From Diplonema papillatum (Eukaryota; Euglenozoa; Diplonemea; Diplonemida; Diplonemidae), in the NCBI GenBank assembly GCA_030068145.1, contig JAPJBO010000256.1, forward strand, positions 1-64,000: a stretch of DNA of 64,000 bases. The letters are read 5' to 3'. Both the position numbers and the translations under genes were made by a program. This document shows, piece by piece, positions 1,379-59,844 of this stretch. Each line of letters begins with the position of its first letter. Within the stretch, counting starts at the first letter, position 1. The notes under the pieces were generated by a model that did not search any database, was not told the DNA's origin, and saw only the letters and a list, made by a program, of their open reading frames with translations.

Positions 1379-2708
1379 TTACGCCTCAACACACCCTGGG
1401 TCCCTTAGGACTTTCTCGTCGTAGTGGGTCACCATGTCTCCTGATGCCCAATCACCCATCTTTTGAACCTGCATGGGGTCCATACCCGCTTTCAGAAGGG
1501 ATGCAACAACCATCTATCCGGGCACTGTGGGTTAGAAAACGCGCCCTCGTCCGTCCCGAGCAGTCGGCGTCGTTGAACGGCTGCAGGATGCCCCGCTTCC
1601 CCGCAGTCCCGCGGAGGGCATCCCTAAACGAGGCATGGACGGGAAACCGGCACAAGAGGCGTTTCCCCTTGGCCATGAGTTTCAGAAGGGAAAAGACCTC
1701 GACAGGGCAGTACAGAATAGACTCTGGCACGCTGTCGGGTCCATTCGGCAGGAGCAAAGGGGGCAACAGATTGATGCTTTCAAAGGTGAGGTATCTACTG
1801 CACGTCCCTGTTGCCTTGAACATAGTCGATCCAACCCTCACGCCGCCCTCGCCGACGCGGACATCCTCCGTCAGGATCGACTGCATGGAGAGTGAAGTGC
1901 TCACCCAGCAGCTGCACATCCGCGCCGTACCCGCCAACGGTCCGCACGAAGCCGAAGATCTGACGGGACTGTGCGGCGCCTCGGGGCTCGTCGCTCTCAG
2001 GGTCAGGCGCCGCTCTCTTCAACGCTCTGATCATCCTGCGGATGTCGTCAGCAGGATTCTCGAGAACCCAACCATCCGCCGTGTCCTCGGCTAAGATGGC
2101 GTTGATGATGTTGTGGGGCGCCTTGTACGCCTCATCTTTCATGCCTACAGGTATCCGCCGAAGTTCTCAAGCCTCCGGACCGTCGTCGGGTATGGATGCA
2201 CGCCCTCGCTCGCACGCCACTCCCTGTACGTGGCCGTGTTCGAGTTGTTGACCCTCCTTGTGCCTGCAGTCGTGTACAGGCTCCTCATGCGAGGGCGGGC
2301 TGCATCAGGGGGACGGTCCTCGAGGGCACGCTTTAGCGCCCGCCGCTGAGACGTTGACCTCTTCTCAACCGGTGTTACGGGACTGACCAGCGCAGGAGAG
2401 CTCTGATCACGCGCTCTCACCAAGTCCTGTACTCTGCGGTACAGCTCAGGACTGGGCACACGCACCGGAAGTGCCAACATCCGAAGCCTCTCCAGTGTCA
2501 GAAGGGTCGTATCGTCCGGGAGGCCTCGGAGGCTTCTACTCACGTCCCTCCACTCTTCCTCATTGAACAAGGTCCGCAGAAACGCGACCCACCCAATCAT
2601 CTTTTCTGGGGCAGGGAGGGCGGGAAGAAAAGAGAAAGAGAGACATAAATAGAGGTAGCGAGGGTATGGAGGAGGACGCTGGCGTGCGTCGGGGCCAGTG
2701 AGAAGCAC
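1379..2708 (-). pseudogene. Tyrosine recombinase remnant, copy 1
   Basis: Minus-strand pieces in three frames together read like a tyrosine recombinase. The N-terminal part (about 2708-2145, likely starting at MIGWVAFLRTLF) leads into a SAM-like core-binding segment with YREWRASEGVHPYPTTVRRL. The next frame continues with NIINAILAEDTADGW. The catalytic part shows an HSAR box (HxxR, at about 1518-1529) and then, after another frame change, MGDWASGDMVTHYDEKV, where the Tyr codon at 1421-1423 fits the nucleophile. A TAA at 1379-1381 ends it. Several frame changes are shared with copy 2, so inactivation preceded duplication. Crypton, DIRS and Ngaro elements carry such enzymes, and I cannot choose between them. 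Confidence 0.62.
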
Positions 2709-2868
2709 CGGCTACATTCAAGCCTTCGAGTTTGCTGAGCCGGACGTCCAGTAGCTGTACCCCCTTCTGCTATACCTATGCCTCTTCTGTGATGTCATCT
2801 GCCTCGCACGTGGGGGCCTCATAGCACCCACATGAACAAAAAAACATTCTTCGCATCGTAAAACATAC

Positions 2869-2967
2869 AATCGCCCGGCACGTCGACCTTGGCACCAGCT
2901 GCGATCAATACCTTGACAACTTCTGAGCGACCGTTCCGGCTGGCTGCAGACAGATACGTCCAACCAT
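2869..2967 (-). CDS. Ankyrin-repeat exon, copy 2 (single 33-aa repeat)
   Basis: This is an open exon of exactly 99 nt (33 codons) between a CACAG acceptor and a GTATGT donor. It begins and ends in phase 1, so exons of this type can be joined or dropped without a frame change. The translation GWTYLSAASRNGRSEVVKVL followed by IAAGAKVDV matches one ankyrin repeat: GxTxLxxAxxxGxxEVVKxLIxAGAxVxx. Ankyrin repeats are protein-binding modules. The flanking introns are about 2.4 kb and consist of tandem-unit sequence with transposon remnants. I infer a multi-exon ankyrin protein transcribed right to left. Start and stop exons are not in view, and the copy 2 donor base makes a Tyr rather than Asp at the junction. 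Confidence 0.68.
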
Positions 2968-3288
2968 CTGTGTCATTGGGTGAGCGGCTAAAATGTACAA
3001 CGACACGAACACAATGTGTGAGTGGTAGCAATCAGATGCAGACTGCATCACAGGCAGCCTGAAGCGGGAGGTGTTACTTTCAGATTCACGTCTCAGGGTC
3101 GAGACGCTGGCGACAGAGAATGGATGATCTTGGGCAAACACAAATCTTCCGTGTCATATGTTGACATGTGGCATCTTCTTGTCCGGAAAGTACACGTTGT
3201 GAGCCGCTCTCCACATTGGAATTCGGTGCTTTTTGGGTTCCATCTTTGTTTGATAAGGGAACAAGGGAAAACGACATTCACCGATCTG

Positions 3289-3603
3289 CTATGTATCATC
3301 CTGCTTCTTGCATGTCAAAACGTTGTGACCCGAATCACCACATCTGGCGCACTTTCGTTTCTTTGCTGCTGGCGGTGGGTCACTTGACGTGCCGCGCTTG
3401 GAGCCCTTTCGTGGTTTGTTGATTACCTCGGAGCATATTCGTTTGCAACAACCACATCGAAGGGGACGGACCTCACCATTGCTTTTCATCCTTCGCTTTT
3501 TTTCCCTGCCCCCCAGGAGCGGTATCGTAACGGGAGGAAGTATAATATTATACTTGCACTCAAGGGTTGCAAGGCACGGGCACTTGGACGGCGTAAGTCT
3601 CAC
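3289..3603 (-). CDS. Zinc-knuckle ORF, copy 2
   Basis: This 104-residue frame is nearly identical to the one in copies 1 and 3. It has a Cys-rich segment (CGCCKRIC), a basic linker (RKGSKR, AAKKRK) and a complete CX2CX4HX4C knuckle reading CARCGDSGHNVLTC near the C-terminus. The knuckle predicts nucleic-acid binding. The frame is repeated in each unit and lies in the putative intron between ankyrin exons, so it is more likely part of a mobile element than of the host gene. No transposase core is recognisable next to it in the same frame. Confidence 0.5.
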   Translation of the reverse strand: MRLTPSKCPCLATLECKYNIILPPVTIPLLGGREKKRRMKSNGEVRPLRCGCCKRICSEVINKPRKGSKRGTSSDPPPAAKKRKCARCGDSGHNVLTCKKQDDT

Positions 3604-22753: not shown

Positions 22754-22806
22754 GTTAAGCATTGAGTTCTTTTAAGTACATGAACCACATGGATTAGCAT
22801 GCACTG
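22754..22806 (-). mobile_element. 53-bp LINE 3' tail (severely 5'-truncated insertion)
   Basis: This segment is identical to the 3' terminal 53 bp of LINE A (48033-48085). On the plus strand it starts GTTAAGCATTGAGTTCTTTT and ends GGATTAGCATGCACTG. No LINE coding sequence is attached, as expected if reverse transcription stopped early. Its flank beyond the 3' end contains CCGCCCACGTGA, also present beside LINE A. Confidence 0.85.
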
Positions 22807-35863: not shown

Positions 35864-38800
35864 CTACCTCTTTGCACGCGTCGTGTCATGCTTCGGTCGC
35901 TTCTTGCCCCGCGTACTGTTTGTCTCCGGTGCGCGCTTCACGTCCGAGGTGCAGTTTGATGACGAGGAATCACCAGATGATTCGGCGCACCTCCTTTTCT
36001 TCCTCGCAAGTTGTTTCCGCGGCCGAGATCTCGACTCCTCTATGCTCCCTGCCTTAGCCACCTCTCGTCTTCGCGGCTCCGCTTCGGTTGGGTTTGTGGG
36101 CTGTTCACTTTTGGGGTGCGCTTCTCGTTCAGAGGCGGCTGCTGCGGCTTCGGCTTCTTGCGGGCGCTCCCACCTGCTTGCTCGTCATCGCGTCCGCGCT
36201 TCCGCTGGGAGCAGGCACCGTCTGTCCCTTTTGCACGTTCACCGTTCGGTGGTGGCGTCCGATCTGTTGGTTGTGGGCCCTGTGGCCGCGGCTTCGGTTC
36301 CGGCACCTTCGAGGCGCACGCGCTCGCCCGTTGGTTGACAGGCCCTCACTTTACCGCTGGCTGTGCTCCGTGGTGCCCTCGCTTGCAACAGCTGCCTGGG
36401 CCGGCGGCTCCGCATGCACGTGCAGCTCGTGAGTCAGGCACTTGTGATGCAAATTCCTGCAACATGCCGTCACAGACTTGTGCGTGGAGCACGCCGTCAC
36501 GGTGCTTCGTGCACATCTTCACCGCCAGCCCGTCCCCTCCCTCGTGGTGGTTGGTGCAGCACCCTTCCAGCTTCAATTTTTGGCGGATGCAGCCCTCGCA
36601 CCTCGGCTGCCGTGCAGCGGACACACGCGCTGGTTTCCCTCGAAAACGGGGATACCATCGGAATCCGCTTCGGGTCGCCTCCCTGCACCGCCAGCTTCTG
36701 CCCCCTCGTGGCAGGTGCCGACACATCCTCGGGACCCCACTGGGCAGCATGATCACTCCTTTTGTCCACCATACTCCGGAAACACATCCGCACCCCACGA
36801 TTCGCCGTTAAAGCAATGGCGCGTACGCAGTAGCTGCGTTTCCAGCATTTCCCTCGTTTCTTCCCCTCCTCGGAATATCGGTCTTCGCGGGTACCCCGTA
36901 ATGTATGAAGAGCCACCAACCGTCCTCGGCGTGTCCACCCGGACTTTCTTTTCCGCTGGCATCGGCGAGCCGCCTCGGGCAGCCACCAGCGCGCTGCTCA
37001 GGCTCGCCACATCTTCGCCATCTTCTTCGTTCGCGTGAGGAGCGAGACTTTCAAGGAGGTCGCGATCAGGGGGCCCGGCAGGTGAAGACCTCAAGTCTAT
37101 CGCCAGCTCCGCCGTCGAGACCTCGCCCGCGGTTGACCAGTACATGCCGTCCAGCCATGCCTGTGCCGCCCGGAAGACCCTCTCTCCACCGACTGCCGCC
37201 ACTACTTCAGGTCGATCAATGCTGCTGAGGTCAACAGGGTGGGCACTGCACGTCTCGTGGTCCAACTCTCTCCACGGGTGGTTTCGCTCGGCCGGGATGT
37301 TTCCCGCTCCAGCTCTCGCTTCTTCCGGCCTGTTTCGGCGAACACCGTTTGCAGCAACTACACCTTTACCCCTTCGAAACCCTTCCTTTTTTCGGCAGGA
37401 TGCAATGAATGGTCAGGCAGCGTAGCCACGCACTGCGGTCGCAGAGCGACCCCTCTGCGTACTGGGGGTCCCGGCGTGTCGTCGTATGACCCCGTGTTCA
37501 AGTGTTTCCTTCTCACTGCTCGCAGTGAAGGCACCCTCGTCGCCGCTCCACCGCGCGGTGTGTGACCTCGTCGACATTGAACCGGCGATAACCCCCGCGA
37601 CGTCCCTCGCAATGTCAGGTGCCGTCGCGGACGCCGTCCAGAGCCCTGCTGACATGCCGCCGAAATCCGGACGACCACACTCGGAACGGTTATGGCCGCA
37701 CGGCCAGAGGCGCGTTGCTCTGGTCCTTCGGATCAGCGAGACCGACGCATTGAGCAGGGCTTCGGGCCATGTGCCAGTCGATCACATTAAACACCACCGC
37801 CAGGGCATCCAGAGCAGCAGCGGTAGCTTCTTCAGCTCCGCCATGCTCAGCCATCGACCCCGGGGGCACTCGCAGACTTCTTCGCTAGCACCCTCTCGAG
37901 GTCGAGACCCGCAACATCTACGCACGACATCGCATGTTCAGTTTACTCACGTAAAGCCTGAGGATGGGATTCATTCGCGCCGGAGAATCAAATCCATCTC
38001 ATTCATGTTGGCCGTCACAGCATTCGCTGACCTGAGCACTGACACACCTTCTCTCGGCCTCCGTTTGCATAACCCGAACAGCTGCGCCTTGCCCGAGCCT
38101 CTGCATCTTCGCATCCAATTGTGTCACGCGGTTCTTCCGCGCACGGGCTGCCAGCCCCTGACTTCGCTGCTCCAGGTTCCGCTCTACCTGCATCGCGTCC
38201 TCGATGGTAGGCGGTATTTGCCCCAGCTCCCTGACCACTCCATTGCCCCCCGCAGGCACCTTAGCGCCGCCAGCGTATTTTCCCACGGCCAGAATGGCCC
38301 GTTTGCGGCAGCCATCACGTCCCGTAGCCCTCGTACATGCGCGTTGAAGGCCTTGCGACACTTGACGGTGGCATACGTAGCTGCCCCAGCACCCCTCGGC
38401 GCCGCCCTCGCGGACACTGGTGCCTTTTTCGGCTGTCTCTCTAGACCTCTCCCCCGGTACGCTTCCATGTGGCCGTCCAAATGTCCCTGTCCGCACAGCA
38501 ATCCGAGCTAATATCCCTCGCAGGCCTCTGATGCTGCTCCCCACAGCCCCGTCACGTCGCTGGGATCAACCGCGGCGAATCCGCTAGGCAATCCTGGAAC
38601 CGAGTGCGGTCTCCCGTTCATATGTATTCGGGGGCGTTCCGTCGCTGCACAGCTCGGCAGCATCGTGCCACCCCGTCCTGGGCATGCACGCCAGGGCATC
38701 CAATGACTCGCGGTTGGTGTTAAAGTCACCGACGATGGCCACCGGCACGTCCCCAAGGGACGCCGCCTGTCTGTGGACGTCATGATGATACGCTCCCTGT

Positions 38801-39350
38801 CGTCGGCCCTCTTGTAGCCGCAGTGGGCGTACAAAGAGAACACGTGCAGGAAATGTTCCCGCTGCAGCCCCACTGCTGTGCGCACGCACCTTGTCGCCGA
38901 ACGAGCACCGCCACATCTCCCGGACCCCGTTCCGCTACCCACGGTGACGGTCCTTCCCTCGCGCCCTCACGTTCGGGGCAGGGGCACCCCACAGTGGCTT
39001 CCAGTCCTTTGACCTGTTCTCCGAAGTCCCGTTGCGCCCAGTCGGTGAGGTGCGTCTTTTGCACCGCCAGAACGTCTGCGTCGATGTGCTTCAGGAAGTG
39101 TGCCCGCTACCGAGAGAGGTGACGTGGACGGTAGCCAGTCGGAGTGTCTTCCGCCGCGCCTCGGTGGCGTGCGGCTCCGACGGCACGGACAGCGGCCGGG
39201 TCGGTGAAGGGCTGGTGGCGCTGTCGTGGTCGCGATCCGTAGCGACATTCGCGAGGGGCAGAAGGAGGCGACGGCGGGGCCGGATGTTGCATGTCGCGAG
39301 GCGGCTGGGGTGCGGATGCGTTGTGCGCAGTAGCGAGTCGAGCAACGATC
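35864..39350 (-). pseudogene. LINE C: decayed APE-type non-LTR retrotransposon
   Basis: Broken minus-strand frames align in order with LINE A ORF2. Near 39130-39160 LRLATVHVTSL matches the endonuclease start ATLNVTSL. Next come QKTHLTDWAQRDF and HVFSLYAHCGYKRADDRE. Then SLGDVPVAIVGDFNTNRES is followed by GWHDAAEL (endonuclease metal/phosphate motifs). A middle frame leads to AWLDGMYWSTAGEVSTAELA (compare AWLSDMQWTESGQASMLELA). The Cys/His region near 36600-36480 has CCTNHHEGGDGLAVKMCTKH, and a Lys/Arg-rich tail extends to 35864. The RT core is largely missing. Divergence from LINE A is high, so this is a related but different lineage. No AlkB or 2A segment is visible upstream of its endonuclease. 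Confidence 0.72.
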
Positions 39351-48032: not shown

Positions 48033-48085
48033 GTTAAGCATTGAGTTCTTTTAAGTACATGAACCACATGGATTAGCATGCACTG
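48033..48085 (-). other. Conserved 53-bp 3' tail of LINE A
   Basis: This is identical to 22754-22806 and nearly identical to the LINE B tail at 56082-56134. Conservation at three loci marks it as the 3' end the reverse transcriptase starts from. Beyond it the three loci differ, apart from CCGCCCACGTGA at two of them. Confidence 0.85.
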
Positions 48086-48099
48086 CCTTGAAAGTCAGG

Positions 48100-51000
48100 T
48101 TATCGGATGACGTCGTCACCTGCCATTGCGTCGTCAAGGTCGAGCATTTGTGGAGCTAGCGGGGTTTGGCTTTCTTGCGATTCCAGAGACTGAGTCGGCG
48201 AGTACGAGGGCGGGCACGTGTGTCCGTTTTTCACTTTCGAGGGCATTGGTGTGCCCGTGGTCCCCGGTCGTTTCTGAGAGCTGCTTGCCCTCGGTACCTT
48301 CTTCTTCCTTCGATGCACCCCTGAGTCGGGGGTGGTCGCCTTCGTCTTCTTCCGCTTGCGGCCGGCGATCGGGCCTTCCTTCGGGGTGCCTAGCACCCTC
48401 TTCTTCAGCGCTGGTCGTTCGCTGGTTCCTGGCGTTGGTGGCGGCCTTTTGGTCGCCCGTCCGGTCGTCGCCGTCTCCTTTTTCGTTGCCGCGGGCGGCG
48501 CTTGCGCCGCTCGCTTTCCAACTGGCGTTCCCCGTTGTACGCCCACCTGGGTGGGTGAGGAGGGCCTCTTCTTCTTGTTGCGTCCGGGGGTTGACGGGAC
48601 GTTCGGCTTGTTGGACTGGTGGTGGCCGCGGCTGCAACATGCCGCCGGTCGCCTCTGCGTCAGCGTAGGGAGCCTTTTGCACTCTTGGCAGGTTCCTCTG
48701 CCATGCGTGCGGCAGGCATGATGCCCGCTGCGGCAACACGCCGCCGCCGTCTTGCACTCGCCGCACTTCGTCGTGCTGTGCTCTGTGCACACCGCGATCG
48801 GCTGCCCATCGTTCGCGTGGTGATGGTGCCGGCAGCACATCTCTACCGTGGGCACGTCCCTTCGGACGAGTGCTCTGCACGCCTCACACTTCCCTTTGTG
48901 ATGGGTCGCGCACGTGACGAGTGCCTTCTCTATATCGACACCCGGCATATGCACGGGGTCTGGGTGCAGTTGTGGTGGGGCAGGCAGGGCCCACCTCGCC
49001 GCTCTCCCGATCGTCCAGTCAGGGTACGCCGGGCACTGCGTCCCTACATCGCTTCCTTTCACTTGTTCCTCAAGTATCGTCCCCGTGTGTGCCTCGCGAA
49101 AGCGTGGCCTGGGCCGTACACCCGATATCCCCGAGATGCCCATGAACGACAGCGACGTCGTCGGGCACACCCTCTCCCCTCTCATGCAGCTTCCCAGCCC
49201 TTGCTGTGCCGCCAGCTTGTCCAACGCGCTCATCATGCAGCGCAGGACGTTTCCCCGTTCTCTCACCCCCTTCGGCGCATTCCCGTGCAGCGGCATGCTG
49301 AGGCCCGAGAAGAGTTCAAAGTCGATCGCAAGCTCTAGCATTGACGCCTGCCCGCTCTCGGTCCACTGCATGTCAGACAGCCACGCTACCAACGCATAAA
49401 ACGTCGGTAGTCCCCAGGTCTTGTTTCGCTCCCACGTCCATGCCGGGGCAATCCGCGCAAAGGGGTGGTCAAATTTCTCGGCAGGCATCGCATCCGCTCT
49501 CGACCAGGGGGTCGTGGGGTTCCTGGCTACCCAGCCACGTGCTTCGAGCCCTGCCCGTTCCGCAAGGATTTCAGCCATCATCTCCTGGAGCCGCCTCGAT
49601 AAGTGGGCGTTCTCCGGTACAACCACACCATGTTCCAGCGTGCATCGGGGCCACTCGGTTCGGTTGGCCGCCATCAGCCCGGCGTGTGCTTCCCGCCGGC
49701 GAATGTGTGAGTATGCGTCGCAGTCCCAGTAGATATGCTGTTCGTTCTCCGTCACGCCGCTCCCACAGTGCTTGCAGCTGGGCGCCTGCGGCTCAGCTCC
49801 GGCCTGCCTCATCCGCGACGTGAACTCCGCCGTGTTCACACCCCCCGCAATCGCAACTCGAATTAGCTTCGCCGTGTGCGCGGAACATTCCCTCGTCTTC
49901 CAGAACGCATTCGTGCGCTCCAAGTCGGCTCTTTCCAGCCCCTGATATCCTGGCCTTCTCGCCATCAGTCGGGCCCACGTCCTCGTTCTCAGGTCCGCCC
50001 TCACTTCGTGCCCCCTCTTCGAGGGCGACGAGGCCAGCGGGTCGAACACTGCACCATTCCGTCGTAGCGTGCGAGATAGGGGCCCAGGTTCCCATATGTG
50101 TCCACACTCCTCCATGCTCCTCATCGCCAGCCCGACTGGGCCGAGGGGTTGGTCCCCCTCGGCGTACCGCCCCCGGATACTCTCCATCAGAGGTAGCAGT
50201 CGCGGTAGCCTCTCGCACGCCGCGTAGAACGCCGTCGTCACCCGGTACGCTAAACACGTACCGGGGTCCGTCAGGTGGCCCTTCTCCTGGAAGTTCAGGA
50301 CCATTTCTCTCGCGCGCTTCGGGTTTGCTCCACCCCAGATCAGACCCATCACCGACGTCGTCAACCGCTTCATCGCCACCTTCGACACCGGCGCGAAGGA
50401 GCAGCCTGATAGCGCTGCCGGCAACACATTCGACTGCACAATACGGACCCGCTTTTCGTACCGGAACGGCGCGTGGCGGAGGCCTTCCGCTAGGGCCGCC
50501 GCCCTCTCTACCCTCTTAGAGTCGGACCTCTCCTTTCTGTTCTTCGCCGTTGAGACTAGGGCCCCCAGACACGTGACGGACTTGCTAAATCGCAGCAGCG
50601 CATTTCCGCTTCGGAGTCTGAGCGTCGACTGGTGCCTCTGCCTCGTCGAGAATGCGATGGTCTTCTCGAGGTTTAGCTGCATTCCGGTGAGTGTGCAGAA
50701 CTCGTCAACAATGTCGACTCCCTTTTGCAATGCGGCCTCTGACAGCCTGGACAGTAGTGTGGCATCATCCGCGTACGACTTAGGACTCACACCCTCAGCT
50801 TCTTTCTTGACCGCTTTCATCACTACCGACAGCAGGGCATTGATGAGTATGACGGACACAGGGCACCCTTGAAGGATACCGTTGGTCACACTAAACTCCC
50901 TGCCCACCCCTAGCGGCAACTTGAAGCGTCTCGCGAGCAGACTGTAAATCGCCCTCAGCGGCTTGAGAACCCGACCGTGCAGTCCTAAGTCCTCAGCCAA

Positions 51001-54000
51001 GCGTAGCACTACCTCTCGCGGGACCATGTCGAAACACTTCCGGAAGTCCAGCGCCACTCCGTAGAGCGGCTCTCCGTCCAGCAAGGCGTCCTCCACCTCG
51101 AGCCCTATCTCCATCAAGACGTCCTCGATCCGGTGGCCCGGCCGAAAGCCTTTCTGTCCTTCTTCGATCCACCCCTCCTGCCACAGGACAATGTCCGCAA
51201 GCCTGCGGCAGGCCCACAAGCGGTACACGGCGGACGTGACGGTTATCGGCCTCGTGTGCAGCGGGTCTTGGCTCTCATCTTTCGGCACCATCGACACCAG
51301 CGCAGTTGTCATGCTTGCCGGCCAGTCCCCAGTCGCTTCGACCAGGTTCATGACGTCTGCAAGTGCATTCAGCAGGGGGAGCGGCAACTCCCGCAGTTCA
51401 GCCATGCGCCAGCCATCCACCCCTGACGCGCTTTTCTTCGGCTTCTTCCTCAGCAGAATTCGCAGCTCCTCCCCCGTGATTGTTCCGGCTTCCATCAAGT
51501 GTGGGCCGATGTGATCCTGGAACCGATCCCGAAACGGCTCGTACTCCGGCTCTGGCCCGTCCTTGTACTTACGCAGGATAGGGTCCCACGCAGTGTTCAG
51601 CGCCTCGTCCATCTCGTCAACATTTGCAGTCACTCCCGCCCCCGTTCGCAACACCCCCGACGGCTCAGCGCGTCCGGCGCAGATGGTTGTCAGACATCGT
51701 CTGCTCGCATCGGCCCTCTCGTTCAGCTTGTCTCGGTACTTCGTAAACCTGGCCGCCGATCCTTCCCTTCCGAGCCTACTCGTCTCTTCCCGCAATGCCG
51801 TGAGAAGCTGCTTCGCCTCCTCATGATCCGGGAATCCTTCTGTCCCTTGGCCACCTTTCATGCACGCCTGTGCCAGCCGTCTGCTGTTCTGCCAGCAACG
51901 GGATACTTCATGCGGAACTGCCTCCGGCCCGCGTCGCTGCGCAAGGTAGCTGCAGATGCGTTCCATCCTGTGGATGGCCTTCCGGAGCCGTAGCTGTCTG
52001 CTGTTCGCCGCCCCCGACCCGTCGCTCGCAGTGCTTGCCGTGATACAGACTCTCTTAGGCGACGTCTTTATCCCCCGGCCGGTACTCCTTCCCCTTTCTT
52101 CCGCAGGGATTCCGAAGGCATCCTGCAAGTACTGCTCACTGACTCGTGACCACTCGAGCCAGGCCTCTTCCACTCGCTGTGCTGCCAGCCGTTCTGCGAA
52201 ATCGGAGTTGGTCAGTCTCTGTACGGCTTCCCTGTTAGCTTCTGTGTCCGAGAGGCCCCACTTGGGTCCCCCCTCGGTAGGGATTTCCCGCGGTACTTTA
52301 AATCGCCACACGATTTGGCGCAGCGCCGCAATGTCCAGGGTCATTGTCACGAGCCGGTGTCCCGGTACGTTCACCGCGGTGGTGACGCATTGACGGAAAG
52401 CTCCCGTCGTTATTCGGTTGAGGAGTATGCGGTCGATCCTCGTGCCTGTCGTCCGGGCGCTGGTAAAGGTCGGTGGTGGCGGTGTGTCACCGGTACGCGC
52501 ATGGTGCAGTTCCGCTGCGTCGGACCATCCGTTCCTTAGTGCCTTCCGCAGCACAGGGGACCGGTCTTCTTCCGTGTTCAGGTCACCCATCACCATTATG
52601 GGGACGTCACCGAGGCTATCTGCCGCTGCGAAGAGGATCTTCTCCAGCATGTCCTCACGCTCCTCGCTCTCCGCCCTCCCGTTTCCGGAAGGGCAGTAGA
52701 CATTGAACACGTGCACGAACGTGTTGCCGGCCCCTGTTGCTACTACCGTATGGCTCACTCGGTCCGGGGACCGTATTGCTGCGTGCGAGAGCGCCGTCAT
52801 CGTATCGTACGCAGGTATCGGTCTCAGTACTAGAGTGGAGAGCCCTCCGTTCGCGGCGTTCACCGTCGAGCGACTACCGGAGTTTCTACAGAGTCTTCCG
52901 GGAGGCGGCAGGCCCCAGTGGCAGCACCATTTCCGCAGGTATTCCTCCGCCTGCGCCCGTTTGCACGGAAGGAGTGTCACCTCCTGGCAGCAGAGAAGAT
53001 CCGCTTCCACCGCGTCGGCCGCTGGGAGATATTGAAGTAAGCTAGTTACGTTCAACGTCGCGAACTTCATCTCCGTGCGGCCGGGGCCCGGGTTCTGTTC
53101 GATGTCTCCAGCGCTTAACAGCTGCTGTCTAGTAGTTTCCTTAATAGATATAAGAGTTCTTTGGCGATTACACAAGTCAGTACGTGGCGCGGGGCTGAAC
53201 TGTTGCTGGGGGGGTGGGGAGGACGCCTGAGGGCGGGGCGGGGGGGGCATGGGGGGAGTTTCTTGCGGGGTGTCCCGGCCTTGCAAACGTTGGGAGGCGG
53301 CCTCGCGCACGGCCCTGTAGGTGAGCGAGACCCGGTCGCGTGCGACATCATCGGGACGAATCCCGTGTGTCCACAGGCTCCTGGCCTCGCCTTCCATGTG
53401 GCACAGTGTGCCGACCGGCAGGGGGGTTCTCACTCTCCGGCTCCCCCTCTCCCACTCCATGACCGTGTCGCTCAAGAGCGATACGGTCGCTACCCTCGGA
53501 CCCAGTTCTCTCTGGTCTTTGTGGGGGTTGATCCCCACTCCCCTCCGGTACCAGTTGGCCAGCAACTGGTCCGGTTCCCACCCGAGACGGTCACGTATGA
53601 GATCCGCCGCTTCTTTCAGGGGCCCCTCGGGGATACCCCGTTCCAGTCTGACCGGGGGTCCGCCCTGTCGGTAGGCGTGTCCCCACTGCTGGGTCTCTCT
53701 GCTTTGTTCTCCCCCCAGCCTCCTCCAAGTGGCTTTCGGCCCAAGCTCGGGTACTCGGCTCAGTCTGTCCAGAAGATCCCGAGGGATCGTCTGGAAGCTT
53801 AGTCCGGGGATTGCTCCCTCCACCCTGACAGGGCCCCCCCCGCAGGCACGCTGGCCTTTGTGGGGGGATTGTTTGTGCGCTGCGGGTAAATTTCCCGGGC
53901 TAATGAGGCCTGGCGCATTGTGGGAGAGAGGGGGGCAAAAAGAAGAAGAAGAAGAAGAGGGATCGCCACCACCTTCGCCTGCTCCATCGTCGAACTGCGT

Positions 54001-54030
54001 GCTGGGACTCACGCGCTGGGCGGCCTGCAC
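48100..54030 (-). CDS. LINE A ORF2: AlkB dioxygenase - 2A - APE endonuclease - reverse transcriptase - Cys/His tail
   Basis: This 1976-codon frame opens with a non-ATG codon (GTG). It is continuous with ORF1 except for one TGA. In order it contains: Pro/Ser-rich leader (1-70); AlkB-type dioxygenase (71-242); Pro-rich linker; 2A motif (about 302-316); APE endonuclease (321-566) with N327, E350, GDLN (482-485), RIDRIL and PGHRLV, where His replaces the usual SDH; and RT (about 855-1125) with LDFRKCFD, GILQGCPVS and YADD (1086-1089). A CX2C...HX4C finger, CKHCGSGVTENEQHIYWDC, lies near 1420. Repeated Cys/His modules (about 1710-1810) and a Lys/Arg-rich tail follow. The endonuclease would nick the target and the RT copy the RNA there. 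No ATG in this frame precedes the AlkB core; the first is codon 191. Clade not assigned. Confidence 0.9.
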   Translation of the reverse strand: MQAAQRVSPSTQFDDGAGEGGGDPSSSSSSFCPPLSHNAPGLISPGNLPAAHKQSPHKGQRACGGGPVRVEGAIPGLSFQTIPRDLLDRLSRVPELGPKATWRRLGGEQSRETQQWGHAYRQGGPPVRLERGIPEGPLKEAADLIRDRLGWEPDQLLANWYRRGVGINPHKDQRELGPRVATVSLLSDTVMEWERGSRRVRTPLPVGTLCHMEGEARSLWTHGIRPDDVARDRVSLTYRAVREAASQRLQGRDTPQETPPMPPPPRPQASSPPPQQQFSPAPRTDLCNRQRTLISIKETTRQQLLSAGDIEQNPGPGRTEMKFATLNVTSLLQYLPAADAVEADLLCCQEVTLLPCKRAQAEEYLRKWCCHWGLPPPGRLCRNSGSRSTVNAANGGLSTLVLRPIPAYDTMTALSHAAIRSPDRVSHTVVATGAGNTFVHVFNVYCPSGNGRAESEEREDMLEKILFAAADSLGDVPIMVMGDLNTEEDRSPVLRKALRNGWSDAAELHHARTGDTPPPPTFTSARTTGTRIDRILLNRITTGAFRQCVTTAVNVPGHRLVTMTLDIAALRQIVWRFKVPREIPTEGGPKWGLSDTEANREAVQRLTNSDFAERLAAQRVEEAWLEWSRVSEQYLQDAFGIPAEERGRSTGRGIKTSPKRVCITASTASDGSGAANSRQLRLRKAIHRMERICSYLAQRRGPEAVPHEVSRCWQNSRRLAQACMKGGQGTEGFPDHEEAKQLLTALREETSRLGREGSAARFTKYRDKLNERADASRRCLTTICAGRAEPSGVLRTGAGVTANVDEMDEALNTAWDPILRKYKDGPEPEYEPFRDRFQDHIGPHLMEAGTITGEELRILLRKKPKKSASGVDGWRMAELRELPLPLLNALADVMNLVEATGDWPASMTTALVSMVPKDESQDPLHTRPITVTSAVYRLWACRRLADIVLWQEGWIEEGQKGFRPGHRIEDVLMEIGLEVEDALLDGEPLYGVALDFRKCFDMVPREVVLRLAEDLGLHGRVLKPLRAIYSLLARRFKLPLGVGREFSVTNGILQGCPVSVILINALLSVVMKAVKKEAEGVSPKSYADDATLLSRLSEAALQKGVDIVDEFCTLTGMQLNLEKTIAFSTRQRHQSTLRLRSGNALLRFSKSVTCLGALVSTAKNRKERSDSKRVERAAALAEGLRHAPFRYEKRVRIVQSNVLPAALSGCSFAPVSKVAMKRLTTSVMGLIWGGANPKRAREMVLNFQEKGHLTDPGTCLAYRVTTAFYAACERLPRLLPLMESIRGRYAEGDQPLGPVGLAMRSMEECGHIWEPGPLSRTLRRNGAVFDPLASSPSKRGHEVRADLRTRTWARLMARRPGYQGLERADLERTNAFWKTRECSAHTAKLIRVAIAGGVNTAEFTSRMRQAGAEPQAPSCKHCGSGVTENEQHIYWDCDAYSHIRRREAHAGLMAANRTEWPRCTLEHGVVVPENAHLSRRLQEMMAEILAERAGLEARGWVARNPTTPWSRADAMPAEKFDHPFARIAPAWTWERNKTWGLPTFYALVAWLSDMQWTESGQASMLELAIDFELFSGLSMPLHGNAPKGVRERGNVLRCMMSALDKLAAQQGLGSCMRGERVCPTTSLSFMGISGISGVRPRPRFREAHTGTILEEQVKGSDVGTQCPAYPDWTIGRAARWALPAPPQLHPDPVHMPGVDIEKALVTCATHHKGKCEACRALVRRDVPTVEMCCRHHHHANDGQPIAVCTEHSTTKCGECKTAAACCRSGHHACRTHGRGTCQECKRLPTLTQRRPAACCSRGHHQSNKPNVPSTPGRNKKKRPSSPTQVGVQRGTPVGKRAAQAPPAATKKETATTGRATKRPPPTPGTSERPALKKRVLGTPKEGPIAGRKRKKTKATTPDSGVHRRKKKVPRASSSQKRPGTTGTPMPSKVKNGHTCPPSYSPTQSLESQESQTPLAPQMLDLDDAMAGDDVIR
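53083..53106 (-). other. 2A ribosome-skipping motif (DIEQNPGP)
   Basis: Codons 309-316 of ORF2 read DIEQNPGP, preceded by LLSAG, matching the DxExNPG|P consensus. The ribosome would skip the Gly315-Pro316 bond, releasing the upstream AlkB product and starting the endonuclease-RT product at Pro316. The endonuclease start (MKFATLNV) follows five residues later. 2A sequences are known in some non-LTR retrotransposons such as trypanosome L1Tc and sea-urchin elements. Confidence 0.9.
53305..53820 (-). other. AlkB-like 2-oxoglutarate/Fe(II) dioxygenase domain in LINE A
   Basis: Residues 71-242 of ORF2 match the AlkB fold pattern. NWYRRGVGINPHKDQRELGP supplies HxD (H170, D172), VATVSLLSD is the following strand, and WTHGI supplies the distal His (H222). 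RVSLTYR (R233 to R239) has the 2-oxoglutarate and substrate-binding arginines at the spacing seen in AlkB. Known AlkB enzymes remove alkyl lesions or methyl marks from DNA or RNA; plant RNA viruses carry them in their replicases. Here it might repair or demethylate the element's RNA or cDNA, which is inference. All ligands are intact. Confidence 0.85.
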
Positions 54031-54078
54031 CGGCCTGGCGGGGCCACAACTGGCGCCGGGGACGGGTCGCGGTGGCAG

Positions 54079-54084
54079 TCAACC
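54079..54084 (-). promoter_or_regulatory. In-frame TGA-CTG between ORF1 and ORF2: candidate readthrough stop
   Basis: ORF1 ends with TGA at 54079-54081. The next codons (CTG CCA CCG ...) stay open in the same frame through 16 codons into ORF2. TGA followed by C is the leakiest stop context known in eukaryotes. An alternative is a small intron from GTGTGC to GGTGCAG that would also remove the stop. A point mutation in this copy is another possibility. Confidence 0.55.
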
Positions 54085-55923
54085 CGCACACGCCTTGCAC
54101 GCGCCGACGTTGCAGCCCTCGCATGTCGTGCGGATCTGGCCCTTCGCCTTCTTCTTCCCGCATAGGGCGCAGGAGAAACCGGCGGTGGCCTTCGCCGGGC
54201 TCCCGAAGGCGTGGACGTGCCCGCCCGCCTCTGCACCGTCCATTGGGACATCGTCCCCAGCGGGTTCCGGCTCGTCCGCTGCCGGCTCCGGCGTCTTCCT
54301 CTTCTTCTGTCCGGCCGCGTCCGCTGGCGGGGCCGCCGGCTGCGGTAGCTCGTCCACCTCCGCCGCCGGCAGCCGCATCCGCCGCTTCCCGCTGGGGGCG
54401 GCAGCGAGCCGCCTGCGCCGCTCCCTCGGCAGCTCACCTCCGTCGTACGGGTTTACCCGGAGGTCGGGTGCCCCCTCCCGCTGCAGCACCCTGAAGGGAG
54501 GGTCGGCCGCCGACGTCACCACGCAAACCCGGGCCCCACTTCGCAGGAACGACGTGGCGACGTCGACCTGCCAGCCGGCCTCCCGCAGGACGTACTCGAC
54601 GTCCGCCTCGTGCTCCCGCGGCGTCGCACCCACCACGAGGAAGCGCGGCTTCGACTCGAGGGGGGCAGCAGCGTGTTCGGCGGCCGCCGCACGCACCTCC
54701 TCCAGCACAGCGCCGCTGCGTGCGCGCACGAGGAGGCGGCTGCCCGTGAGCACGAGACCGGCTGCCGCCGCGCCTGCCCGCTCAGCTACCGCCAGCGCGA
54801 CCGCCCTCGTGACCCCCTTTTGCAGGGCGACCACCGGCATGGCGTCCCGGCAGGCCTTCTCCGTCGACCGCCAGAATCCGCCGTCCCGGCCGGAGCTGGC
54901 CAGGATCGCTTCGGCCTGCGCGCGGGGCACCCGCACGACCAGCTCGCGCCTCCCCTGCTGCGACGACACGCCCCACATGGCGTCGTCGGGGACGCGGACC
55001 TCCGTCTTCAGGGCCGTCTTGACAGCCCTCCGGCACAGGCGAGTCAGGGCCGTGCGCGGGTCCCTCTCGACGCACTCCCAGGTCTCCGGCGAGGCGTGCT
55101 TCCTGGCCACGACGAAGGCCAGTACCGTCGTCGCGGCGTTCGGCTTCACCGCGCCGACGGGCATCTTCTGGACCTTCACCTGGCCCCGCTGGCATACCGG
55201 CCCGCCGCCCGCCCACAGGTACATATCCTGTACCCGCCCGCCTTCCAGCAGCACTGGGCCCCGGCGTGCGTCGTCGAAGGCCTCCCGGCACAGCACGCCG
55301 AGGCGCACCCGCTTCCCGTCGCGCTCTGCGACGTCCACCGCATCTGCTGCGGGACCCTTCGCTTCTTCGGCTGCGGCGGCGCTCGGGGCGACCCAGAGGC
55401 CAGCTTCGACAGCTTCGAAGTCGGGGGAGGGGAGTACCGGCGCGTCCCAGTCGGCGGCGTCGATTTTACCGGGTGGCGGGGGCCGCCTGGTCACTTCTGC
55501 CCAGGTGGGCGCGTACCCCTGCCGGGGCCGCTGTTGTGGTTGTTGCTGCTCCTGCGGGCGGCGCTGCTGCGTTTGCTGTTGCTGTTGCTGTTGCGGTTGT
55601 TGCTGCTCCTGCGGGCGGCGCTGCTGCGTTTGCTGTTGCTGTTGCTGTTGCTGTTGCGGTTGCGGTTGTTGCTGCGGTTGTTGCTGCGGTTGCTGCTGCT
55701 TCGGTTGCTGCCGCTGCTGCTTCGGCTGCTGCTGCTGCCTCGGTTGCTGCTGTTGCTGCGGTGGCGGCCGTTGTTGCGCCGGCTCCCCGCTGTTCGCCTC
55801 GATCTGACGCCGGAGCAGCGTCGTGGCGACGTCGAGGATGCCGAAAACGGCATCCAGCTGGTCGCGGTTGGCGCGTTCCGCCATCCCGCGCGCTTCCTGG
55901 ATCAGGGCGTTAATCCTGTCCAT
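54079..55923 (-). CDS. LINE A ORF1: poly-Gln, zinc-binding nucleic-acid protein
   Basis: The 614-residue frame starts at ATG 55921-55923 and ends at TGA 54079-54081. It has a short helical N-terminus (IQEARGMAERANRDQLDAVF), a long Gln/Pro-rich stretch (about 50-135), and a globular middle rich in Ala/Arg. Acidic and basic linkers follow, then a C-terminal Cys cluster, CX2C-X12-CX2C-X4-CX2C (CALCGKKK... CEGCNVGACKAC). That spacing resembles the cysteine-rich end of piggyBac-type transposases. LINE ORF1 proteins usually coat the element RNA. The stop is TGA followed by C, and ORF2 continues in the same frame, which suggests translational readthrough. Confidence 0.85.
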   Translation of the reverse strand: MDRINALIQEARGMAERANRDQLDAVFGILDVATTLLRRQIEANSGEPAQQRPPPQQQQQPRQQQQPKQQRQQPKQQQPQQQPQQQPQPQQQQQQQQQTQQRRPQEQQQPQQQQQQQTQQRRPQEQQQPQQRPRQGYAPTWAEVTRRPPPPGKIDAADWDAPVLPSPDFEAVEAGLWVAPSAAAAEEAKGPAADAVDVAERDGKRVRLGVLCREAFDDARRGPVLLEGGRVQDMYLWAGGGPVCQRGQVKVQKMPVGAVKPNAATTVLAFVVARKHASPETWECVERDPRTALTRLCRRAVKTALKTEVRVPDDAMWGVSSQQGRRELVVRVPRAQAEAILASSGRDGGFWRSTEKACRDAMPVVALQKGVTRAVALAVAERAGAAAAGLVLTGSRLLVRARSGAVLEEVRAAAAEHAAAPLESKPRFLVVGATPREHEADVEYVLREAGWQVDVATSFLRSGARVCVVTSAADPPFRVLQREGAPDLRVNPYDGGELPRERRRRLAAAPSGKRRMRLPAAEVDELPQPAAPPADAAGQKKRKTPEPAADEPEPAGDDVPMDGAEAGGHVHAFGSPAKATAGFSCALCGKKKAKGQIRTTCEGCNVGACKACAG

Positions 55924-56081
55924 TTTGACGGAGCTACGGGTAGCCCGCGTTCTTTTCGCGGATGGGTACCGCTGTTGTGTTATGGAGGGTGTTTGTCCTG
56001 GATGAATTCCGGGCGCACTTTACCGGCCGCGTGAGCAGCCAATAAAGTACAGAAACTGTAGCTTTTAAATCGTTGGTTGGT
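55924..56081 (-). other. 5' region of LINE A
   Basis: The 158 bp between the ORF1 ATG and the LINE B tail should be the 5' untranslated region and internal promoter. It contains AATAAAGTAC and GTGTTTGTCCTGGATG, but I see no recognisable promoter element. Confidence 0.5.
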
Positions 56082-56166
56082 GTTAAGCATTGAGTTCTTT
56101 TAAGTACATGAACCACATGGAGTAGCACGCACTGTATTGAGTTCTTTTAAGTACATGAACCACATA
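56082..56166 (-). repeat. LINE B 3' tail with an internal ~30-bp duplication
   Basis: The 53-bp tail (56082-56134) has two base changes compared with the others. It is followed on the plus strand by a second copy of ATTGAGTTCTTTTAAGTACA plus TGAACCACAT (56135-56164). Thus part of the tail is tandemly duplicated in this copy. Confidence 0.85.
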
Positions 56167-56188: not shown

Positions 56189-57349
56189 TTACTTTATGAC
56201 GTCGTCACCTGTCATTGCGTCGTCAAGGTCGAGTACTTGTGGCGCCAGGGGCGCTGGGCTTTCTTGCGGTTCTGGAGATTGCGTGGAGGGGCACAGGTGC
56301 GGACAGGCTTGCACGTTTTTCACTCTCGAGGGCACTGAAGTGCTTGGGGACGTCGAACGTTTCTGGTAGCGGTTTGCTTTAAGGGCCTTCCTCTTTCTTC
56401 GTTGCACCCCTGACTCGGGTGTGGTCGCCTTCGCCTTCTTCCGCTTGCGGCCGGCGATCGGGCTCTCCTTCGGGGTGCCGAGCACCCTCTTTTTCAACGC
56501 TGGTCGTTCGCCGGTCCCTGGCGTTGGTGGCGGCCTCTTGGCTGCCCGTCCGGTCGTCGCCGTCTTCTGCTTCGCTACGGCGGGCGGCGCCTGCGCCGCG
56601 CGCTTTCCCGCCGGCGTTTCTCGTTGTACGCCCACCTGGGTGGGTGAGAGGGGTCTCTTCTTCTTTTTGCTGTGTCCGGGGGTTGCCGGGGCGTTCGGTT
56701 CGTTGGGTTGGTGGTGGCCGCGGCGGCAGCACGCTGCCGGTCTCCTCTGCGTCAACGTAGGGAGCCTCCTGCATTCTTGGCAGGTTCCTCTGCCATGCGT
56801 GCGGCAGGCATGATGCCCGCTGCGGCAGCACGCCGCCGCCGTCTTGCACTCGCCGCACTTCGTCGTGCTGTGCTCCACGCACACGGCGATCGGCTGCCCA
56901 TCGTCAGCGTGGTGATGGTGCCGACAGCACATCTCTACCGTGGGTACGTCCCTTCGGACGAGTGCTCGGCACGCCTCACACTTCCCCTTGTGGTGGGTCG
57001 CGCAGGTGACGAGTGCTTTCTCTACTCCGACACCCGGCATATGCACGGGGTCGGGGTGCAGCTGTGGTGGGACAGGCAGGGCCCACCTCGCCGCTCTCTC
57101 GGCCGTCCAGTCCGGGTACGTCGGGCACTGCGTCCCTACATCGCTTCCCTTCACCTGCTCTTCGAGGATCGTCCCCGTGTGTGCCTCGCGAAAGCGGGGC
57201 CTGGGCCGCACCCCCGATATCCCCGAGATGCCCATGAACGACAGCGACGTCGTCGGGCATACTCTCTCGCCTCTCTCGCAACTCCCCAGCCCTTGCTGTG
57301 TCGCCAGCTTGTCCAACGCGCTCATCATGCAGCGCAGGACGTTTCCTCG
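56189..57349 (-). pseudogene. LINE B ORF2, C-terminal part
   Basis: From just after the inverted segment to TAA at 56189, this corresponds to the LINE A C-terminus: MMSALDKLATQQGLGSCERG, the repeated Cys/His modules (CATHHKGKCEAC, CCRHHHHADDGQPIAVCVEH, CRTHGRGTCQEC) and a Lys/Arg-rich tail. The frame is intact but disconnected from the upstream part by the inversion at 57350-57424. Confidence 0.85.
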
Positions 57350-57424
57350 CTTGCCATCGACTTTGAACTCTTTTCAGGCCTCAGCATACCGCTGCACGAG
57401 AATGCACCGAAGGGGGTGACGGAG
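57350..57424 (+). other. 75-bp inverted segment inside LINE B
   Basis: In LINE A (49258-49332) the minus strand encodes AIDFELFSGLSMPLHGNAPK. In LINE B the same 75 bp is reversed, so the plus strand encodes AIDFELFSGLSIPLHENAPK. Flanking sequence is collinear on both sides, and the segment length is the same in both. The inversion destroys the ORF, giving RHPLRCILVQRYAEA and a stop. Confidence 0.9.
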
Positions 57425-58776
57425 CTCTAGCATTGACGCCTGCCCGTTCTCGGTCCACTCCATGTCTGATAGCCACGCTACCAACGCATAAAACGTCGGT
57501 AGTCCCCAGGCCTTGTTCCGCTCCCACGCCCATGCCGGGGCAATCCGCGCAAAGGGGTGGTCGAGCTTCTCGGCAGGCATCGCATCCGCTCTCGACCCGG
57601 GGGTCGTGGGGTTCCTGGCTACCCAGCCTCGTGCTTCGAGCCCTGCCGGTTCCGCAAGGATTTCAGCCATCATCTCCTGGAGCCGCCTTGAGAAGTGGGC
57701 ATTCTCGGGTACTACCACTCCGTGTTCCAGCGTGCATCTGGGCCAGTCGGCGCGGTTGGCCGCCATCAGCCCGGCATGTGCCTCTCGTCGCCGTATGTGC
57801 GAGTACGCTCCGCAGTCCCAAAATACGTGTTTCTCGTCCTCGGTATCGCCGCTTCCACAGTGCTTGCAGCTGGGCGCCTGCGGCTCAGCTCCGGCCTGCC
57901 TCATCCGCGACGTGAACTCAGCCGTGTTCACTCCTCCCGCCAACGCTACACGTATAAGCCTCGCGGTGTGCGCGGGACATTCTCGCATCTTCCAGAAGGA
58001 GTTCGTCCGCTCCAGGTCAGCCCTCTGCACACCCTCGAATCCCGGCCGCCTCGCTACTAGACGGGACCACGTCTTCGCCCTCAAATCCGCCCTCACCTCA
58101 TGCCCCCTCTTCGAGGGTGTCGAGGCTATCGGGTCAAACATTGTACCATTCCTCAGCGTGCGAGACAGGGGCCCTGGTCCCCATACGTGTCCACACTCCT
58201 CCATGCTCCTCATCGCCAGCCCAACTGGCCCCAGGGGTAGGTCCCCCTCGGCGTACCTTCCCCGGATGCTCTCCATCAGAGGCAGAAGTCGTGGCAACCT
58301 CTCGCACGCCGCGTAGAACGCCGTCGTCACCCTATATGCTAGGCATGTACTGGGGTCCGTCAGGTGGCCCTTCTCCTGAAAATTTAGGACCATCTCCCTC
58401 GCGCGCTTTGGGTTGGACCCACCCCAGATCAGTCCCATCACCGACGTCGATAGCCGTTTCATTGCCACCTTCGACACCGGCGCGAAAGAGCAGCCTGACA
58501 GCGCCGCCGGTAGCACATTCGACTGTACAATTCGGACCCGCTTCTCGTACCGGAACGGCGCATGGCGGAGGCCTTCCGCCAGGGCAGCCGCCTTCTCCAC
58601 CCTCTCCGAGTCGGACCTTTCCGTCCTATTCTTCGCCGTCGAGACTAGGTTCCCCAGGCACGTGACAGACTTGCCAAACCGCAGCAGCGCATCCACGCTG
58701 CGGAGTCTGAGCGTCGACTGATGCCTACGTCTCGTCGAGAACGCGACCGTTTTCTGGAGGTTTGGCTCCATTCCGG
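57425..58776 (-). pseudogene. LINE B ORF2, RT thumb to zinc-finger part
   Basis: The open frame corresponds to LINE A residues from about 1115 onward. It includes NLQKTVAFSTRRRHQST, SVMGLIWGGSNPKRAREMVL, NFQEKGHLTDPSTCLAYRV and the finger CKHCGSGDTEDEKHVFWDC. It stops shortly after entering the inverted segment. The first residues (MGHA) lie outside LINE homology. Confidence 0.85.
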
Positions 58777-59844
58777 CGTGCCCCAAGTCGGTTCAGCGCT
58801 TTGACCCGCATCTTTCCTGCATCCTTTGACTCGACACGCAGCGCTAGAGGTCTCTTCCGATAAAAATGACTCCTGATTCGGAAGGAAACAGGGTTCCACT
58901 TCGTTTGCTGAGGGTACCACTTTGTTTGGGAAGTTGGGGGTTCCACTTCGTCCGCTGAGTTGGGGGGTGCACTTGGTGCACATAGACTCAGCAGAAGGAA
59001 GATTTCCACGCCTCGACGCGCCAACAGCGCTACAGGTCTCAGCAGGAGGAGCTTCAGTATGACAAGACCCGCTCAAGTATGTCATCCTATCAGAGCATCC
59101 AGATCTCCGGCTAAGGGACATGGCTACACGCTAGTGAGAGTCCGAACGTCGTTGCTGATCCGCTGCTGAAACACTCAAGTATTGTTTGTGCTTTCGACTC
59201 TTCGGCCCATCTTGATTGCCACGTTCCTGCGCGCTTGGTGCTTATCTTCCTCGTTTCATCGGCAGCATATCGACGGCATCTTCTTGACGCTTGGTTCTTG
59301 TTCGTGGGGATCAATGCGAACGTCAAGGTTGACAACAATCAACACAAAAAGGCGGAATAGCGCTGGCGTCGTCTGCTGGTTCGTAGACAAGAGTCCTACT
59401 AGGCGCTGGTTCTGGCTATCTTCCACCCAAAAGGTGCCCAGAAAATCCCCGACGGGTGTCACGGGGATGAAAGTCCCCGTTTTCCCCCCCGTGAACCCCC
59501 GTCGGGGAACGGTTCCCCCGTCGGGGGGGACATGTATGTTTATTATTTTACTTGTGAGTTGTCGACAACTTGTTGTGTTGAGGTGTCATTCAGATGTAAA
59601 TCTAAGAGGAATGGGATGAGAAGGAGGACAGACTGGGTGTCGCGGTTTGACAGGTAGTGACAGGAATAGCTGAGGCAAGGAGAGCAGGGAGCGGCCACAG
59701 TCGAAGACGGCACCCGAGCGAGGTCCATGTAGGAGGGGAACTCACCAGGAGCCCGGGGCCAGGTGGTGGGCGTTTTCCGGCGGTTTCCTGTTCTGACGTC
59801 GTGCTGCTTTTGTGACTCTTAACGAGTAAAAGTGACAGACATAC
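58777..59844. other. No assigned gene; GC-rich hairpin cluster at 59440-59530
   Basis: The left part has phrases such as GGTACCACTTTGTTTGGGAA and GGTTCCACTTCGTCCGCTGA, loosely repeated. At 59440-59530 TCCCCG...CGGGGA pairs across 10 nt, and CCCCGTCGGGG occurs twice. Downstream exons of the gene to the right should lie at 59550-59810. A 42-nt candidate at about 59737-59778 (ETAGKRPPPGPGLL, AG before, GTGAGT after) is plausible but unproven. Confidence 0.35.

Follow-up and report, generated by a model that had tools for sequence, protein, structure and literature searches.

An AlkB-type dioxygenase domain apparently maintained as selected cargo in an APE-type LINE of Diplonema papillatum

Mobile elements can be accompanied by 2-oxoglutarate (2OG)/Fe dioxygenases that act on nucleic acids, as in the linkage of TET/JBP dioxygenase genes to fungal KDZ DNA transposons, which involves another dioxygenase family and another element class than the case described here. 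An AlkB within a retrotransposon family has been reported from the orchid Phalaenopsis, where a Ty3/Gypsy element, a plant long terminal repeat element, holds it in an extra open reading frame (ORF), and where RNA binding and demethylation of N6-methyladenosine (m6A) RNA were shown in vitro (PMC9289625). Plant RNA viruses (Alpha-, Betaflexiviridae and Closteroviridae) are likewise selfish replicons with AlkB in the replication polyprotein (PMC9289625). Here we describe an AlkB domain in a long interspersed nuclear element (LINE) of the marine euglenozoan Diplonema papillatum, located in a stretch of 64,000 nucleotides (positions 1 to 64,000 of contig JAPJBO010000256.1, assembly GCA_030068145.1), hereafter the window. 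In contrast to the orchid element, the Diplonema element is an APE-type LINE in which AlkB stands between UGA-CU and a 2A motif, with further AlkB modules in other element classes; unlike the plant viruses, it encodes a reverse transcriptase (RT) and an APE endonuclease (EN). The ingi and L1Tc elements of trypanosomatids are also euglenozoan APE-RT LINEs, and 2A-like motifs of the form D(V/I)ExNPGP are known in trypanosome LINEs (PMC12278014, PMC4981915). Ingi is described with RNase H, and AlkB goes unmentioned in the accessible part of that description (PMC12278014), whereas ORF2 of the window LINE contains AlkB and has no RNase H among its Pfam matches at E values up to 10, so that the APE, RT and RNase H combination of ingi/L1Tc was not found in it. 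A search of openly available full texts with AlkB and retrotransposon terms, assessed by the titles and opening lines of the abstracts except for the orchid paper, returned the orchid case and no LINE with AlkB among the papers listed. Within the text surveyed, no earlier case of AlkB in a LINE was thus found, in agreement with a preliminary description of this DNA that knew of no established precedent for AlkB and 2A in one LINE.

The LINE that carries the AlkB stretch at 53083-53820 was given the working name family A, and the window holds a complete copy composed as follows.

48038..56077, minus strand: complete family A LINE of about 8.0 kb, with its 5' end at 56077 and the end of its 3' tail motif at 48038; the same ends recur in oriented copies
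54082..55923, minus strand: coding part of ORF1, 614 amino acids, Gln-rich, with a Cys cluster in the final 30 residues (by eye); homologous to the N-terminal parts of P0020 and P0039
54079..54081, minus strand: UGA stop of ORF1, with ORF2 in frame and CUG next; proposed readthrough site; TGA in 18/18 loci that hold the site, TGACT at 7/7 junctions
48103..54078, minus strand: reading frame of ORF2, which runs for 1992 codons behind the UGA and terminates at its own stop (48100-48102); no ATG lies ahead of AlkB
53308..53802, minus strand: AlkB module of 165 residues that begins with LSFQ and ends with TYRAV
53083..53109, minus strand: 2A / StopGo motif GDIEQNPGP, which fits the published motif form (PMC4981915)
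52414..53055, minus strand: APE endonuclease domain (PF03372 match)
50647..51261, minus strand: reverse transcriptase domain (PF00078 match), with YADD at 50775-50764

The AlkB stretch, read on the minus strand, consists of 246 stop-free residues ending in GDIEQNPGP, and its residues 71-169 match PF13532 (2OG-FeII_Oxy_2, AlkB) with an E value of 3.8e-13, scoring 50.5 bits where the cut-off is 31.2. The motifs NWY (53556-53548), HKD (53523-53515), the distal His in WTHGI (53373-53359) and RVSLTYR (53334-53314) are all located, and NxY, HxD, the distal His and the 2OG-binding RxxxxxR are motifs characteristic of the AlkB family. These residues are invariant across 8/8 aligned AlkB rows. A predicted structure of the module has the AlkB fold, and its structural matches include viral AlkB proteins; an AlphaFold2 model built from a 4-row alignment reached a pLDDT of only 45.7 and was discarded. 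The complete AlkB signature reported in the preliminary description is thereby upheld, the profile score standing above the curated cut-off and the requested structure prediction giving an AlkB fold, and lack of profile support is ruled out as an objection. In ORF2 as a whole, PF03372 (APE, E 1.4e-8) and PF00078 (RT, E 1.1e-18) place endonuclease and polymerase in one ORF, as in an APE-type LINE, and the endonuclease start MKFATLNV at 53070-53047 lies just behind the 2A, which confirms the earlier reading of a 2A motif directly before APE. The profile, motifs and predicted fold together identify a real AlkB-type 2OG/Fe(II) dioxygenase domain in a LINE ORF2, for which enzyme activity is predicted.

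A protein search with the 246-residue stretch gave 0 relatives of similar length at E 1e-3 among 1115 candidates, and a search with the AlkB region recovered three proteins only, all from D. papillatum, by a method limited to relatives of similar length that share short words. A viral source was sought in IMG/VR contigs with two peptide patterns, which matched 10 stretches of which 0 were confirmed, and phage records gave 0 matches. One gene model, P0004 (DIPPA_14024), has a membrane-protein-like first part and closes with an AlkB segment of 98% identity; it may reflect either host gene capture or an annotation artefact.

Across the genome searched (271 Mb, 2910 contigs), an AlkB-core pattern gave 114 forward and 207 reverse matches, in which sites may count repeatedly, against 0 for the reversed control, and four DNA types were recognised among the matches listed. 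Two further LINE types, B (L032) and C (L030), have an EN-RT 96% and 90% identical to that of A. Over 165 codons of AlkB, the ratio of non-synonymous to synonymous substitution (dN/dS) was 0.26 (A-B), 0.14 (A-C) and 0.15 (B-C) by NG86, and 0.33, 0.14 and 0.13 by YN00, while a longer cut of 180-181 codons gave 0.21-0.25 with Fisher tests of 5e-5 to 6e-11; EN-RT ranged from 0.09 to 0.13 among the same types. Since dS of AlkB (0.155 for A-B, 0.402 for A-C) is similar to that of EN-RT (0.191 and 0.393), AlkB seems to have been inherited along with the LINE in A, B and C. When all 21 AlkB pairs, including those from other element classes treated below, were compared, dN/dS could be computed for 18, at 0.18-0.33, silent sites being saturated in the remaining three, and 21/21 gave Fisher values below 1e-4. 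By these measures AlkB is kept under purifying selection in the LINE subfamilies as selected cargo, and its retention in the diverged subfamilies B and C disposes of a chance fusion, which the survey of related LINEs proposed earlier had been meant to detect. PF13532 is listed for 0/44 EN-RT protein relatives, which in the AlkB families is explained by gene models (such as P0007) that start at the first EN Met, behind AlkB.

LINE relatives that lack AlkB are multicopy too, the L034-type 2A being found at 13 places and the L035/L036-type giving 209 matches, so that AlkB is not essential in the clade and might be regarded as a passenger captured from the host without a role in transposition. The low dN/dS of the unsaturated pairs, the invariant catalytic residues and the occurrence of AlkB in three element classes make this a very improbable account.

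Family A itself looks young and recently active, because the 40 scored genome copies of the 738-base AlkB segment (of 282 candidates) are all 99-100% identical, 36/40 of them at full length, and because ORF1 and ORF2 are open in 11/20 loci, window copy included, with length differences solely in multiples of three. As to insertion, TTAAC-like ends recur in copies in a check for target-site duplications, though the flanking DNA consists of repeats too, and the family seems target-specific. In several copies of the element (48038-56110 in the window) the 5' end abuts TGCTTAAC or similar sequence and the 3' end gives way to TTAAC-like sequence and CGTGGGCGG; some copies stand head-to-tail, directly behind the 3' tail of another. 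A Gln-rich repeat of ORF1 (55518-55777 in the window) varies in length among copies, by multiples of three bases in those with open frames.

The AlkB domain is reached in an unusual manner, since ORF1 and ORF2 share one frame and are separated by a single UGA (54081-54079), and the first ATG of ORF2 in family A falls inside AlkB. The stop was counted in 20 fetched family A loci, 18 of which hold the ORF1 end (L026 and L027 have no ORF1 at the site and were excluded). Eight loci outside family A, namely L030, L037 and L040 of type C, L032 of type B, L034, L038, L035 and L036, all show TGACT followed by an in-frame ORF2; together with A they represent six families, the L038 junction deriving from the L034 family and being counted with it. 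Over 123 ungapped nucleotides (nt), 18 of the 21 pairs among seven junctions are 22-42% identical and three are 57-66% identical. An AUG ahead of AlkB is lacking in A, B and L038, and under purifying selection AlkB would nonetheless be translated. A UGA with CU behind it is known as a leaky stop context; the corresponding stop of Moloney murine leukaemia virus gag-pol is UAG. That virus likewise reaches a same-frame downstream ORF through stop readthrough (PMC5009743), although it is a retrovirus, whereas the Diplonema LINE combines UGA-CU with a 2A, its readthrough being proposed from sequence. The 2A reads GDIEQNPGP in A and GDVEQNPGP in subfamilies B and C, and LINE relatives without AlkB also carry a 2A immediately before EN. 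With UGA-CU kept in six LINE families and no AUG before AlkB, an ORF1p-AlkB fusion made by readthrough and 2A skipping is the likelier upstream product. The preliminary description had the 2A releasing a free dioxygenase, a claim that fits poorly with a frame running on from ORF1 over one UGA; it mentions neither the minus-strand orientation nor the missing AUG nor the in-frame UGA at the end of ORF1. A gene model that joins ORF1 to ORF2 without AlkB, 2A and EN (P0010) was set aside as an annotation artefact, no transcript of this kind being seen.

A free AlkB enzyme could still arise if ribosomes terminated at the UGA and restarted at a non-AUG codon, such as a CUG right behind it, or if ORF2 were translated from a separate trans-spliced mRNA, the 2A then freeing AlkB from EN-RT. 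Such a CUG is the next codon in A, C, L035 and L036; an ATG stands closely ahead of AlkB in other element types described below (L033, L043, L041 and L042), so that a separate start is compatible with function; and spliced-leader RNA genes are present in Diplonema according to the genome report (PMC10161547). In L032, however, the codon is CUA, and L034 and L038 have CUC; in L035 and L036, which have two 2As, the first ends 30 residues past the UGA, an arrangement that is hard to understand for a restart but agrees with readthrough plus skipping. We hold a free AlkB to be unlikely. The shared frame of ORF1 and ORF2 in every family examined would also be expected if UGA were an amino-acid codon in this lineage and the two ORFs formed one protein cut at the 2A. 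About 2600 codons of ORF1 and ORF2 in the window copy hold no other in-frame stop, which indicates that UGA is avoided and behaves as a stop, and reassignment of the codon is accordingly given very little credence.

Between the UGA and the endonuclease, these LINEs seem to possess a position with exchangeable content. It is occupied by AlkB in A, B and C, by short peptides between two 2As in L035 and L036, and in L034 by some 150 residues that match no Pfam family. In the L035/L036 group the two 2As bound a short peptide between UGA and EN, and paired 2As lie mostly 252 or 336 nt apart among the matches listed, out of 209 single-motif matches genome-wide. Another LINE relative, P0027, has an OTU protease domain before EN (Pfam 4e-10), which is an alternative cargo to AlkB; P0035 and P0030/31 appear OTU-like by eye, and Pfam gave no OTU in P0030. 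Locus L038 is a mosaic, 98.2% identical to the AlkB-less L034 over 61-2111 and 99.1% identical to B over 2118-3401, with the switch point at 2111-2118, within the linker that separates UGA from AlkB, and on this comparison is a natural recombinant of the L034 family and the AlkB family B.

Related AlkB modules were found in two other element classes, where they lie near the N-terminus of the frame. L033 (type D) and L043 (type G) encode in a single frame AlkB, a weak OTU match (7e-4, below the cut-off) and RT (2e-21), with no APE match at E 0.01; the end of the type D frame resembles, by eye, a zinc-knuckle and restriction-like endonuclease region, and L031 is a second D-type locus whose AlkB is identical to that of L033. 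A tyrosine recombinase suggested by gene model P0006 as part of the OTU-RT element was dropped, none lying upstream of the AlkB ORF in L033. In L041 (type E) and L042 (type F), AlkB (2.5e-14 and 5.7e-17) shares one frame with Helitron_like_N (about 5e-38), joined in L042 by a PIF1 helicase (4.6e-42). Helitron_like_N gave 68 matches when each of the 76 candidates was scored, and the top nine, at 135-138 bits, form a separate group; 6/9 have a same-strand AlkB match about 2.2-2.9 kb upstream, in 5/6 cases with equal open-frame length, and the remaining 3/9 have none nearby among the PF13532 matches listed (150 scored of 250 candidates).

The AlkB of A shares 77% identity with those of D and G and 42-45% with those of E and F. 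Near-identical polymerase or Rep regions accompany clearly different AlkBs: L033 and L043 are 99.98% identical in pol over 4693 nt but 85% identical in AlkB (dS 0.34), and L041 and L042 are 97.8% identical in Rep/Hel (dS 0.09) but 67% identical in AlkB (dS 1.19), so that modules seem to have been exchanged between elements, with one pair for each class. The ATG closely ahead of AlkB in L033, L043, L041 and L042 is gone in the LINE, which suggests that the LINE was the recipient of the module; the AlkB tree is unrooted, the sole host-like AlkB fetched (L044) being too distant to serve as root. We tentatively propose, at somewhat less than even confidence, a circulating anti-methylation cassette, in which one AlkB lineage would have passed among APE-LINE, OTU-RT retroelement and Helitron in the manner of phage counter-defence modules, and in which a LINE clade with a fixed cargo slot between UGA-CU and 2A would produce its cargo fused to ORF1p and coupled to synthesis of the polymerase.

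The observations are probably best explained by an active-looking APE-type LINE with AlkB as selected cargo, made through UGA-CU readthrough and 2A skipping and acting as an ORF1p-tethered demethylase, all readings of expression and chemistry being drawn from sequence. Ribosomes would mostly produce ORF1p alone, while a minority would pass the UGA-CU into AlkB and skip the peptide bond at the 2A, yielding ORF1p-AlkB and an equal amount of free endonuclease-RT. ORF1p would then tether AlkB to the RNA-protein particle of the element, where it might strip methyl groups, whether damage or host marks, off element nucleic acid. Several findings weigh against this explanation. Subfamily C has a single in-frame AUG ahead of AlkB, at residue 32; RNA folding behind the UGA is no better than in shuffles (z 1.0, 0.5 and -0.1), which gives no structured stimulator; UGA-CU beyond family A comes from one to three loci per family, and the families share ancestry; and the B-type locus L039, excluded from the UGA count, has no visible ORF1, and its linker is interrupted by in-frame TAG stops. 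The AlkB segment of 20 family A copies shows 0 synonymous and 2 non-synonymous changes, but best match to this segment was the basis on which the copies had been chosen, which makes the sample uninformative, and within-family dN/dS was dropped as evidence of selection. The dN/dS check suggested in the preliminary description thus pointed to purifying selection between subfamilies (0.13-0.33) and was uninformative among copies of A. Furthermore, the eraser ALKBH5 suppresses L1 in human cells, contrary to a simple benefit of m6A removal (PMC7873242).

Demethylation of element nucleic acid, conjectured for element RNA or cDNA in the preliminary description, is nonetheless the likely task of the module, and its carriage in several element kinds suggests that removal of methyl groups helps such elements survive. 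RNA and DNA substrates are rated about equal, and single-stranded DNA or mRNA would suit all three element kinds. Action on DNA rather than RNA, by which AlkB would lift a host DNA mark or, in the course of transposition, mend single-stranded cDNA or Helitron DNA, is a sizeable but less than even prospect; a related AlkB sits in Helitron, and both LINE and Helitron transposition include single-stranded DNA steps. The presence of modules in Helitron, a DNA transposon class, speaks against a role confined to the cDNA of LINEs, and the RNA activity of the orchid AlkB, with the AlkB domains of plant RNA viruses, stands on the side of RNA.

The window contains further LINE sequence. Directly upstream of the family A copy lies the following feature.

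56192..58792, minus strand: older LINE relative, 5'-truncated near the RT end, with an in-frame stop inside; 84% amino acid identity over 850 residues

Another LINE 3' tail lies at 22759-22782, and fragments of a more distant LINE ORF2 (about 37% identity) occupy 36831-38820. Gene model P0013, labelled phosphatidylserine decarboxylase, includes the family A RT and probably reflects a LINE insertion that was annotated as a gene.

The D. papillatum genome paper reports a dozen AlkB homologues and interprets them as host regulation (PMC10161547). Of the 150 scored PF13532 matches, 108 fall within frames open for 1000 amino acids or more and 64 within frames of 1980-2050 amino acids, the size of ORF2; part of the matches was examined as DNA, and the assignment of the others to elements is presumptive. 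The prevalence of long frames bears on the host-regulation reading. The results provide a LINE with an apparently selected AlkB, a LINE clade in which a readthrough-like stop and a 2A are conserved, and related AlkB modules common to three element classes in one genome; they also allow a test of whether methylation of nucleic acids holds mobile elements in check beyond plants and mammals. If the cassette reading is true, the host would mark or damage mobile nucleic acid by methylation and the elements would counter by erasing it.
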